This document shows positions 18,968 to 24,135 of a stretch of 41,302 nt of DNA, piece by piece. The notes under the pieces were generated by a model. The model was not told where the DNA came from. It worked only from the letters and a program-made list of their open reading frames with translations, and did not search any database. The translations under genes were made by a program, and so were the position numbers. The DNA comes from Vulcanimicrobiota bacterium. Lineage in GTDB: Bacteria > Vulcanimicrobiota > Vulcanimicrobiia > Eremiobacterales > Eremiobacteraceae. The DNA is taken from NCBI GenBank assembly GCA_019235715.1, contig JAFAKE010000045.1, positions 1 to 41,302 on the forward strand. The letters are read 5' to 3'. Positions within the stretch are counted from its first letter, which is position 1. Each line of letters starts with the position of its first letter.

Positions 18968-19792
18968 GTGAACCCGGGCATCTTCGTCATCATCACGGCG
19001 CTGCTCTACATGTTCGCGACCGCGTTGCAGATGGGCACGAACGCGGCTCGGCTGGCTGGTGTACGCACCAAGCGCGTCGCCACCGGACTCACGCTGTTCA
19101 ATCTGTTCGGCACTACCGGCCGGTTCCTCAACTTATTCTATCTGCCGCTCATCGGCAGTCTCGCCGACAAGGCGGGCGCGGCGCACGATCCGATGCAATT
19201 CGATTTCGACATGCGCTGGGTGATGGGCGCGGCAACGCTCGGCGTCGTCTTAGGCGGCATGCTCGTGCCCTGGGCGAGCCGCACGCTGGCGCGCGGCATC
19301 GGCTCGTTCGAGCGGCGCGGTTCGCTGCTCCACGCGCTCGCGCAGCTGCTGCGGCCGAGCGTGCTCGTCTCGGTGCTGCGCGATTTCGAGCTGCCGCGGA
19401 TCTCGATGTTGCGCTACAGCCCGCGCGATTTGCCGAAGGGCTTTTTGGTGTGGAACATCGTCGTCATCGCGTTTTGGGTGGCGGGGCCGCTTGCCGCGTA
19501 TTACGCCGGCGTCATCGAGCCCGACTATCGTCTGACCGCAGCATCGCTTTCCGGATTGATCACCGGCATCTCGACGTTGACGCTCACGTACATCGTCGAT
19601 CCTACTTCTGCGCTGATCACGGATCAAACCGCGCACGGCCTCCGACCCGAGTCGGACATCAAGGCGATGATCTTATGGCTTGTGGGTACGGCGCTGATCG
19701 GCACGCTTGTCGCGCAGCTGTTGCTTGTCCCGGCAGCGGACATCATCGCGCTTGCAGCGAAATTGGTGAACAATGCGCACATCCATCTCTAG
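18968..19792 (+). CDS. amj: Amj-family lipid II flippase
   Basis: This 274-residue membrane protein has about six hydrophobic segments. The N-terminal portion ARLAGVRTKRVATGLTLFNL, followed by FLNLFYLPLIGSLAD, is the signature of the Amj (formerly DUF2837, YdaH) family. In Bacillus subtilis, Amj flips lipid II across the membrane as an alternative to MurJ. Length matches the family (about 260-275). The start is GTG 18968. It overlaps the next lipoprotein gene by 20 bases. Its place after a peptidoglycan-type deacetylase fits a role in wall assembly. Whether the genome also has murJ cannot be seen here. Confidence 0.82.
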   Translation: MNPGIFVIITALLYMFATALQMGTNAARLAGVRTKRVATGLTLFNLFGTTGRFLNLFYLPLIGSLADKAGAAHDPMQFDFDMRWVMGAATLGVVLGGMLVPWASRTLARGIGSFERRGSLLHALAQLLRPSVLVSVLRDFELPRISMLRYSPRDLPKGFLVWNIVVIAFWVAGPLAAYYAGVIEPDYRLTAASLSGLITGISTLTLTYIVDPTSALITDQTAHGLRPESDIKAMILWLVGTALIGTLVAQLLLVPAADIIALAAKLVNNAHIHL

Positions 19793-20472: not shown

Positions 20473-20652
20473 TCAAGCGCAGCCGATGTGACCGCACTGG
20501 CACGGCCCCTCGCCGCGGCCGGCGCCTTCGCCGGCGCAATACTCGCTGCAATACATGGCGGCCGAGTCGGGCGCGAGCGCACAACCGCAGACCTCGTTGG
20601 CGCAGTCGCGCTCAGAGCCCATCTCGCGTTCTGCCTCCAAGCGCTTTTCCAT
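20473..20652 (-). CDS. Metallothionein-like Cys-rich protein (59 aa)
   Basis: This is a small gene of 59 codons at the end of the sugar-transfer operon. Its ATG shares one base with the stop of the upstream gene (TGATG), and GGGGAG lies nine bases before it. The protein has eight cysteines and a histidine: Cys 17, 22, 24, 35, 39, 51, 53, 58 and His 55. The layout C-x4-CGC, then YCSEYCA, then CQCGHIGC matches SmtA-type bacterial metallothioneins (CxC, YCSxxCA, CGHxxC), which bind Zn, Cd or Cu in a cluster. The first 16 residues are a charged helix absent from SmtA. Binding of metal is therefore expected but not shown. No metal-responsive operator is visible, because the gene has no promoter of its own here. 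Confidence 0.85.
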   Translation of the reverse strand: MEKRLEAEREMGSERDCANEVCGCALAPDSAAMYCSEYCAGEGAGRGEGPCQCGHIGCA

Positions 20653-22169
20653 CAGTGCGCGCTCCCCGGTATCGGCCGCGGCCGGCTCATGTCGTAGACC
20701 GGCCAGCCGGTGCTCGTCGGAATCTGCTGAAAGCGTTGTAGGTACGTGTACAGTTCGCGATTGGCCTTCAGCCTATCGGGCTCCACCGCGATATAATATC
20801 TCGCGCCTTTGCGCACCGCGCTCTCCATGTCGAAGGGCGTCCATACGAGCGGATCCTCTTCCCAGCCCTTGCGATCGATCAGATAGAGCACGTCAGGTCC
20901 GTAGTGGCCCATCACGACGATGCTTCCCGCGGCGAGCGTGCGGTCGAGCGATTGCGCCCACGCATAGACTTTCCGGCTCCACGTATAGTACGGGTGGATC
21001 TCCAACATGTTGGCGTACGCGGTGAAGAAGATGATGACGGCGAGCGTCGCGCACGCCCACGCCGACATACGCCGTGCGCCGAAGGCATCGAGCACTCGCT
21101 CGCCTGCGATGCCGGCGAGCAAGACGGCGGGCGGAAGCCACGGCAATAGATAGTAATCGACGCGTTCGACGTTGACGACGACGAACGCGTAGACGCAGAG
21201 CACCGCGAACCAGGAGACGAAAAGCCATGCGAGCACGTGCTGGTCCGTGCTTTCGTCCGGCGCTCGAAAAACGACGAGAACCAGAACGCTTAGCAGCACG
21301 AGCGCGAAAAGCACCGGGCCCAATATCGTGGTTGAAAGCATCGTCATGAGCTCGAACGTCGAACGGATTCCGGCAAGCAGTGCGCCCGGCGAAGACAGTT
21401 CGTGCGCCAGCGTCGGCAGCACGTGCTTTTGCGTGATGCCGCTGAACCAATGCCATTCGGCGATGGCGCGCACGTGCCGGAAGTAGAGTGCGAACGGAAG
21501 CAGCGTACCCGCGAGGAACGCATACAAGGACCAATCGGTCAACGCTGCGCGCCATCCGCGTCGCGCGAACAGCACCGCCACGACCGGCGCGAGGATCAAC
21601 AGCGCGGGCGGCTTCGCAAGCCATGCGAGCGCGCCGAAGACGAACGCGAGCATGAAGTCCGTCGTGCGGCGCTGCTCGCACCAACGCCACCAGAACAGCA
21701 GCGTGGCTACCATGAAGCACACCATCACGCTGTCGGGCGTGAACGTGCGTCCGTAATAGACCGCGCCCGGCGCGATCGCCAGAAGCAACGCGGCGATGAG
21801 ACCCGCGCGCCGCGAGGCCAGCGCCGCGCCGAGAAAATAGACGAGCACGATCGTGGCGAGGCTGAAGAGCATCACGATGAGACGGCCGGCGATCGGATGC
21901 ACGCCGACGACATGGTACAGCTGGGCGGCTGTGAACGGAACGATCTGCAGCTCGAGCTCGATGTAGTTCGGGGGAGGTCCGTCGTAATCGACCTGCGGAT
22001 AGAAGATGTTGTTTTGCAGTTGTGCGAAGTTACGCGCGATGGCGGCCTGATCGCCTTGACGCCAGCCAGGATGGTCGAGTATCGGATCGCGGATGTGATA
22101 GAGGCGCAGCGCGCAGCCGAGCACGACGATCGCGCACAGCGCGAGAGCCGTGAACCGCCGCTGCGTCAC
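20652..22169 (-). CDS. Membrane glycosyltransferase, GT39/ArnT (PMT_2) family
   Basis: This 505-residue polytopic protein has about eleven hydrophobic segments and a periplasmic C-terminal part. The first loop carries DYDGPPPNYIELELQ after the first membrane span, the position where GT39/GT83 enzymes keep catalytic acidic residues; RTFTPDSVMVCFMVATLLF follows, as in ArnT-like proteins. Such enzymes move a sugar from a polyprenyl-phosphate carrier to lipid, protein or glycan outside the membrane. It starts with GTG 22169, overlapping the GtrA gene by four bases, and ends at the metallothionein-like gene. The acceptor cannot be named. Confidence 0.88.
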   Translation of the reverse strand: MTQRRFTALALCAIVVLGCALRLYHIRDPILDHPGWRQGDQAAIARNFAQLQNNIFYPQVDYDGPPPNYIELELQIVPFTAAQLYHVVGVHPIAGRLIVMLFSLATIVLVYFLGAALASRRAGLIAALLLAIAPGAVYYGRTFTPDSVMVCFMVATLLFWWRWCEQRRTTDFMLAFVFGALAWLAKPPALLILAPVVAVLFARRGWRAALTDWSLYAFLAGTLLPFALYFRHVRAIAEWHWFSGITQKHVLPTLAHELSSPGALLAGIRSTFELMTMLSTTILGPVLFALVLLSVLVLVVFRAPDESTDQHVLAWLFVSWFAVLCVYAFVVVNVERVDYYLLPWLPPAVLLAGIAGERVLDAFGARRMSAWACATLAVIIFFTAYANMLEIHPYYTWSRKVYAWAQSLDRTLAAGSIVVMGHYGPDVLYLIDRKGWEEDPLVWTPFDMESAVRKGARYYIAVEPDRLKANRELYTYLQRFQQIPTSTGWPVYDMSRPRPIPGSAH

Positions 22170-22603
22170 GCCCGGTCTTCGGCGGGCCGATGCGTGTGGC
22201 GAAACGTCCAGTACTTATTGAAGAAGAAGTTCACGCCCATGCCGCCGACGGTGCCGCACAACCATATGAGAGAGTTGCGCAGCGGAAACGCCGCGAGGTG
22301 GCGGTCCAGCTCGCCCGTGATCAGCACGCCGAGGCCGAGGGCGATCGCGGAGACCGTGAGGAATTGTGCGAGCTCCTTGCCCATGTGCCCGGTCGAACGG
22401 AACGTCCACAAGCGGTTCCACCAGTAGTTGTTCACGCCGCCCAGGATGAAGCCGATGGAGAACGCGAGCCGCAGATCGAGGCGGAAATGCAGCAGCATGT
22501 GGAAGATCGCGAAGCTCACGACGGCGCCGGACGCGCCGACGATCGCGAACTTCACGAACTGACGCACGCCGCGACGGGCGGTCAGCTTCCCCGCGGCGCT
22601 CAC
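22166..22603 (-). CDS. GtrA-family membrane protein
   Basis: This 145-residue protein has four membrane segments, starting RQFVKFAIVGASGAVVSFAI, and carries the two GtrA marks NNYWWNRLWTFRS and FFFNKYWTF(R). GtrA proteins accompany polymer or teichoic-acid-type sugar transfer and are thought to flip polyprenyl-phosphate sugars across the membrane. Its start is GTG 22603, because the frame further upstream (to 22957) overlaps the previous gene; GTGA junctions lie at both ends. Between two membrane glycosyltransferases, it would supply their lipid-linked donor. Confidence 0.9.
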   Translation of the reverse strand: MSAAGKLTARRGVRQFVKFAIVGASGAVVSFAIFHMLLHFRLDLRLAFSIGFILGGVNNYWWNRLWTFRSTGHMGKELAQFLTVSAIALGLGVLITGELDRHLAAFPLRNSLIWLCGTVGGMGVNFFFNKYWTFRHTHRPAEDRA

Positions 22604-24135
22604 GCGAGCCAGTACCAATCGGCGAACAGAACAGTGAACAATCCTAAGAGGGGCAGGAACAGCGAGACGATCGCGGAGTTGATGACGGGCCGCCTCCCCC
22701 ACAGCGCGAGCAGCATGAACGCCGGGAAGACGACGAGCGCGAAGCGCGGCATGCTCATGAGGCTCGCGGTCGACATCGGCACGAGCAGCGATGCTGCGAA
22801 GTACAGCGAGTACGAGGGGCGCAGCACCCAGAACGAGACGATCATCAAAGCGAGAAATGCAAGCGTGAAGACCAGCTCGATGATGTGATTCACGGCCGCG
22901 GGCGAGCTCAACGGGTGGGCGACGATGAGTTTCAGCGTGTTGGCGATGCTGACCCACGGGAACGAGAGATGGCGATTCCAGTCCACTTGGATCTTTTGGA
23001 ACGCCATCGGATCGCCGACGAGCGCATAGAGGAACGTCATGTAGACGAGAAGCCCAGCCGGCACGAGCGAGAGACCGATGATGCCGCGCAGCAAAGCCGT
23101 GCTTTGACCTTCACGCCATCCGCGCCAGACCTCGTACAGCAAAGGCAACGCGACGAGCACGCCTTCGACCCGCGTCAGGGCCGCGAGCGCGCCGACAACG
23201 CCGCTGGTGATGAAGTTGCCGCGCCGCGCATAATACACCGACGCAACGGTCAGGGCGAGGAACAGCGATTCGGTGTAGACCGCTGAGAAAAAGATCGCGG
23301 TCGGAAAAATCGCGGTATAGAAGATCGCGTGGAACGCGGTGCTGTCATCGCCGAACTCTTTCTTGGTCAGCGCGTACAGATAACCGAGCGCGACGAAAAA
23401 CGCGACGTTGGAGATGATAAGTCCCGCGATCAGGTTGTCGCCGATGAGCTTGCCGAGCACGTGTATGAGCAGCGGATACAACGGGAAGAACGCGATGTCG
23501 ATCCCGTGGTACCCGAGCTGCGCGATGTCGAGGTAGTGCTGCGCATCCCAGCGGCTCCACACATCGAGCACAAGGCCGTGCTGCGGCGACCAATGATGGC
23601 CTGCGCGCTGTCCGATGACGATTGCCGCGACCGACGCGATGAGGATGAGTGGAATGCGCGTCGCGAGGAAGATGCTGCTCACCAAGCGCACGGTGCGCAC
23701 GAAATACGCGAGCACGGCAAGTTTGATCGCAAGCCATGCGACGACGACCATCGTCAGCATGAACGACGCTGATCCGATAGAGCCCGGAACTTGCAGTACG
23801 TACAGCCACAGCGCGAAGAACGGCAGGTAGCTGAGCGCGTCGACCTGCAGCATCATCTCGTGCTCGACGTCGGCCCAGCGCCCGACATACTTCGAATACA
23901 GCGCCCACACGGCCAGGGCGCCTACCCCGCCGGCGATGATGCACGCCAGCAGGCCGAGGTCGCCTGCGACCGCGTGCGCGCGCGATGCGATGACATACCA
24001 TGCGAAGAAGCCCGCACTCGCGCCGGCCGCAAACGTGACGAGCGCGGCGTAACGGGCGGCGGCAGGCAGAAAAGACAAAGGGCCTGCGAAGGTGCGCTGG
24101 CCCCGAATGGGGGGTTGTCCGGCGGCGTATTGCAC
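22600..24135 (-). CDS. PIG-V-like membrane mannosyltransferase
   Basis: This 511-residue polytopic protein has about twelve hydrophobic segments. The centre has WSRWDAQHYLDIAQLGYHGI followed by AFFPLYPLLIHVLGKLI, the pattern of the bacterial PIG-V/DUF2029 family (WDxxHYxxIAxxGY). In eukaryotes PIG-V adds the second mannose of GPI anchors; bacterial relatives use lipid-linked sugars outside the membrane. A conserved SAVYTESLFL segment follows. The first 40 residues are only weakly hydrophobic, and a later start is possible; GTG 24135 is taken. It heads the four-gene minus-strand operon with the GtrA-like gene, the GT39 gene and the metallothionein-like gene. The 45-base gap 24136-24180 to the divergent gene shows no clear promoter. 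Confidence 0.87.
   Translation of the reverse strand: MQYAAGQPPIRGQRTFAGPLSFLPAAARYAALVTFAAGASAGFFAWYVIASRAHAVAGDLGLLACIIAGGVGALAVWALYSKYVGRWADVEHEMMLQVDALSYLPFFALWLYVLQVPGSIGSASFMLTMVVVAWLAIKLAVLAYFVRTVRLVSSIFLATRIPLILIASVAAIVIGQRAGHHWSPQHGLVLDVWSRWDAQHYLDIAQLGYHGIDIAFFPLYPLLIHVLGKLIGDNLIAGLIISNVAFFVALGYLYALTKKEFGDDSTAFHAIFYTAIFPTAIFFSAVYTESLFLALTVASVYYARRGNFITSGVVGALAALTRVEGVLVALPLLYEVWRGWREGQSTALLRGIIGLSLVPAGLLVYMTFLYALVGDPMAFQKIQVDWNRHLSFPWVSIANTLKLIVAHPLSSPAAVNHIIELVFTLAFLALMIVSFWVLRPSYSLYFAASLLVPMSTASLMSMPRFALVVFPAFMLLALWGRRPVINSAIVSLFLPLLGLFTVLFADWYWLA

Follow-up and report, generated by a model that had tools for sequence, protein, structure and literature searches.

Bacterial metallothioneins hold a tight zinc-finger site (PMC10612145). 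Those of Pseudomonas (PflQ2 MT; PDB 6GV7, 6GV6 and 6GRV) form a Zn3Cys9His cluster and are encoded in operons with unrelated genes and without metal-responsive regulators (PMC7387436). In marine Synechococcus WH8102, bmtA, encoding the zinc store BmtA, is regulated without an adjacent SmtB, being activated by Zur at a promoter of its own that carries two Zur boxes (PMC9337993). SmtA of Synechococcus elongatus PCC 7942 (PDB 1JJD) has a full ligand set of nine cysteines and two histidines, and an SmtA/SmtB-type locus is recognized by a divergent ArsR-family repressor adjoining the metallothionein gene. MymT, a copper metallothionein (NCBIfam NF052418), is likewise a small cysteine-rich metal binder.

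Here, we analysed a gene with metallothionein-like features on a stretch of 41,302 nucleotides (the window) from a 2.5 Mb genome assembly of the phylum Eremiobacterota (107 contigs, 96% complete). The gene lies on the minus strand at 20652..20473, a strand that an earlier note on this DNA had not given, and consists of 59 codons and a stop. Its product, MEKRLEAEREMGSERDCANEVCGCALAPDSAAMYCSEYCAGEGAGRGEGPCQCGHIGCA, contains the eight cysteines (17, 22, 24, 35, 39, 51, 53 and 58) and His55 described in that note. Inspection by eye found no signal peptide in the protein, which is therefore expected to be cytosolic. Directly upstream on the same strand lies the gene for a PMT_2-type membrane glycosyltransferase of 505 aa (20652..22169; PF13231, 3.2e-18), preceded by the gene for a GtrA-like membrane protein (22166..22560, start approximate; PF04138, 9.1e-23), third-last of the presumed operon, and by that for a PIG-V-like mannosyltransferase (22600..24135; PF04188, 2.3e-11), its first gene. 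Because these same-strand genes overlap or nearly touch, they likely form a four-gene operon (mannosyltransferase-GtrA-glycosyltransferase-small gene), and the small gene would be co-transcribed as its tail. A promoter scan of the operon returned one sigma-70-like site, at chance level. The sharing of one base between the glycosyltransferase stop and the ATG of the small gene (TGATG), pointed out previously, is present in the window, but it is not a conserved trait; the distance from stop to start is -1 in the window and +9 and +32 bases in G002 and G001, so that within the genus (g1) adjacency is kept and the overlap is not. Past the small gene, 25 bases on, comes the end of a convergent gene that matches TPR weakly, and the same convergent group includes, at 18968-19792 on the plus strand, a gene for Amj, the alternate lipid II flippase (PF10997, 2.2e-66).

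Searched as a single sequence, the window protein matched nothing in Pfam and NCBIfam, nor in the PDB with phmmer. A profile built from its relatives found bacterial metallothioneins as the best, though weak, PDB matches, namely 6GRV, 1JJD (SmtA), 6GV7 and 6GV6 (E 0.009-0.055), and hhalign of the family against SmtA gave a probability of 90.7 (E 1.3e-6). In this alignment (family/SmtA) C17/C9, C22/C14, C24/C16, C35/C32, C39/C36, C53/C47, H55/H49 and C58/C52 are paired. The two proteins are also alike in length, in the C-x4-C-x-C start, in the YCSxxC finger motif and in the CGHxxC end. The zinc-finger half (C-x4-C, YCSxxC) is complete, with C17, C22, C35 and C39 aligned to SmtA C9, C14, C32 and C36, which we take to be the ligands of its zinc-finger site (site A). 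Unlike SmtA, however, the window protein has no equivalents of C11, H40 and C54 and gains C51, two residues ahead of the CGH motif; thus the ligand order, earlier described as that of SmtA-type metallothioneins, is close to theirs without being identical. The Pseudomonas proteins share the YCSxxC finger half, yet they start with CxCxxCxC, differ in the C-terminal half, where CxCGHxxC is absent, and possess a disordered C-terminal tail that the window protein lacks. MymT has a different motif, and just one family relative matches NF052418 (E 0.33); its likeness to the window protein, a presumed metal binder, is one of size and cysteine content. PF02069 (Metallothio_Pro) is the sole Pfam family matched by many members, 16 of the 76 reaching E values up to 0.1 (best 3.6e-6), whereas the window protein itself gave no match at E<=10. 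No member was seen above the curated Pfam cut-off of 33 bits; a paralogue in the window genome, one of the members matched, scored 24.7 bits (2.7e-5). Since these matches stay under the cut-off, the window protein would best be described as a divergent protein of the metallothionein type, without formal membership in PF02069; the metallothionein-like character proposed before is nonetheless supported by the PDB, hhalign and PF02069 results together. The paralogue itself (L041, contig C71, 10955-11098) adjoins an aquaporin-like gene, with an NRAMP metal transporter gene one small unknown gene away.

Profile searches recovered family members from 93 of the 149 Eremiobacterota genomes and from 43 of the 70 genera, with up to seven copies per genome by a first profile and eight by a second one. 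The genomes G007 and G008, 2.5-2.6 Mb in size, each carry seven to eight copies, a high number for a bacterial gene of the metallothionein type. When the second profile was run over 388 genomes, about 240 of them from outside the phylum, a single match outside it was obtained (G372:C102:3723-3863, E 6.1e-8), possibly a transfer or an old relative. Searching plasmids by tblastn returned no match and hence no sign of plasmid spread. In the literature searched, we found no paper linking metallothioneins with Eremiobacterota. The pattern C-x4-C-x-C ... C-x3-C ... C-x-C-x-H-x2-C was present in all 104 copies examined, which are those with a fetched neighbourhood and represent 34 genera; in an alignment of 76 sequences the eight cysteines and the histidine are invariant and the glycine preceding the histidine is nearly so. 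The first 26 sequences were chosen from tblastn loci by their cysteine pattern and are biased toward it, while later copies came from profile matches unfiltered for that pattern.

In a tree of the 104 copies, the window gene falls into a six-member clade (support 98/90) drawn from three genera (g1, g2 and g3). The N-terminus is charged in all six members, runs for about 14-20 residues and ends in E-R-x-C; in the window protein it is represented by residues 1-16 (20605..20652, minus strand). In other clades mostly 4-8 residues stand ahead of the first cysteine. The extension is real and confined to this clade, and the suggestion of a separate subfamily, which carries an N-terminal extension missing from SmtA, is upheld. 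Its description as a helix holds less well. The AlphaFold2 model (pLDDT 78.5, pTM 0.56) makes only residues 5-9 helical, at low confidence, with a mean pLDDT of 55 over residues 1-10, so that helicity is weakly predicted. Translation may instead start at Met11. A Foldseek search of this model against the PDB gave no match, which says little for a metal-free protein of 59 residues but does not favour the metallothionein reading either.

As for regulation, no ArsR/SmtB-type gene (PF01022) was detected in 14 genomes at a distance of 7 kb or less from a family copy, nor anywhere on the window contig. The window gene thus lacks the adjacent SmtB of the smtA locus, as the earlier note had implied, and, unlike bmtA, it has no evident promoter of its own. 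The accompanying premise, by which metallothionein genes are usually controlled by a repressor of their own, was too strong; given the Pseudomonas operons without regulators and the use of Zur in WH8102, a missing adjacent ArsR gene is not unusual.

Taken together, we consider it quite probable that the product of the gene is a metal-binding protein of the metallothionein type, located in the cytosol, and that the gene is expressed from the tail of the operon without serving the glycosylation pathway. C17, C22, C35 and C39 would form one tight structural zinc site, and C24, C51, C53, H55 and C58 would complete a small thiolate/imidazole cluster. Altogether, the eight cysteines and one histidine would hold some three Zn(II) or Cd(II) ions, for which the Pseudomonas cluster is the nearest stoichiometry model. 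The protein would probably act as a zinc/cadmium buffer in the cytosol, most likely buffering and storing zinc (BmtA, too, is a zinc store) and trapping toxic soft metals. Its gene would be transcribed last in the mannosyltransferase-GtrA-glycosyltransferase operon without contributing to that pathway, the family copies having ended up behind different operons from one lineage to the next.

A short frame in G+C-rich DNA whose single product has no Pfam, NCBIfam or PDB match could be suspected of being spurious and of yielding no product. We regard the chance of this as negligible, and the comparative evidence refutes it. Two further species of g1 carry orthologues with 86% identity, dN/dS for the three pairs among the three congeneric species is 0.07, 0.07 and 0.13 (Nei-Gojobori), with the 16 N-terminal codons likewise constrained, albeit over few sites, and the ligands are invariant as described above, so the frame does not owe its existence to chance. 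The small frame is a real gene under purifying selection, and the absence from close relatives that was to count against it is not what we found. A second alternative concerns what the protein does: as an SmtA-like zinc-finger protein, it would hold one or two structural zincs and use its fold to bind a protein or nucleic acid partner, with no buffering. Such "SmtA-like zinc fingers" were reportedly noted in bacteria by Blindauer in 2002, in work that PMC10612145 and PMC10119931 cite. The full conservation of the four finger ligands agrees with this, as do the RING fingers that come next after the metallothioneins in the PDB search (E 0.14), scattered weak Pfam matches of single relatives to zinc-finger and treble-clef families, and the loss of two SmtA cluster ligands together with one histidine. 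On the other hand, the four further cysteines and the histidine are equally invariant and exceed what two typical finger sites would need here, no conserved basic or hydrophobic binding surface is seen in the consensus beyond the ligands, and the presence of up to seven or eight divergent copies per genome suits a buffer better. We therefore judge a purely structural role unlikely, and a metal-buffering metallothionein-type protein remains our preferred reading.

The earlier note had further proposed a tie to envelope assembly, in which the protein would serve the glycosyltransferase operon, or the assembly of the envelope, as its own metal donor or buffer. Adjacency and shared direction with the glycosyltransferase in three species of the genus speak for it. 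The decisive test was the survey of related genomes. Glycosyltransferase orthologues are found in all 14 genomes tested, sister family included, with 45-76% identity outside the window genome, but only the three g1 species, and none of the 11 other genomes, have a family member at most 1.5 kb away from them; the linkage is not kept beyond the genus and the proposed tie fails. In fact, even within the six-member clade the neighbours change, from the glycosyltransferase gene (the three g1 species) to a LigD primase-polymerase gene (G003), a BrkB-family gene adjoining Ku/LigD (G011) and an ABC-2 transporter with Hsp20- and BON-like genes (G013). Elsewhere, copies follow genes for lumazine synthase, a sodium:solute symporter (in a purine gene group), cytochrome b or a kbl-like protein, or lie near NRAMP, neighbours without a Pfam check being named by eye. 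Across the window's own taxonomic family (f1), 16 of 31 copies have a co-directional gene ending at most 150 bases upstream, and these 16 genes belong to different families. Seven of the 31 copies (L034, L035, L044, L045 and L119), which come from four genomes of three genera, have end-joining genes (Ku, LigD domains) no more than 6 kb away; this may be a neighbourhood of stress genes. The sister family (f2) offers the other point in favour of an envelope role. Of its 66 copies, 48, which represent 16 genera, adjoin the 3' end of the same large gene for a secreted protein and have LptF/LptG, Lnt and a lytic transglycosylase-like gene nearby (L043, L048, L049, L051, L081, L122 and others). The large neighbour looks like LptD/OstA by eye, but Pfam and a PDB profile search gave no confirmation, and we do not assign it this identity. 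The f2 copy is downstream of the large gene and on its strand in three genera (g10, g15 and g47) and convergent to it elsewhere, including one g15 case; its position is inherited and the shared direction is not. Moreover, the window copy stands on a different branch of the tree from these copies, most of which are convergent to the envelope gene and not co-directional with it, and the window protein has no signal peptide visible by eye. A dedication to glycosylation or to the envelope is, in our estimation, very improbable. Somewhat less improbable, although still unlikely, is a phylum-wide subfamily with a ligand set of its own (C-x4-C-x-C, C-x3-C and C-x-C-G-H-x2-C; eight cysteines and one histidine), whose many copies would have become dedicated metal donors or buffers of individual operons, the f2 copy kept beside LptF/LptG and Lnt through 16 genera among them.

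Our analysis reveals no link between metals and glycosylation, the position behind a sugar-transfer gene being peculiar to one genus. Genes of this type are commonly found in unrelated operons without an adjoining metal-sensing repressor. To the few known bacterial metallothioneins, the family would add a large branch that escapes current Pfam and NCBIfam models, belongs to a phylum of mostly uncultured bacteria, differs in its ligand set and is present in many copies per genome.
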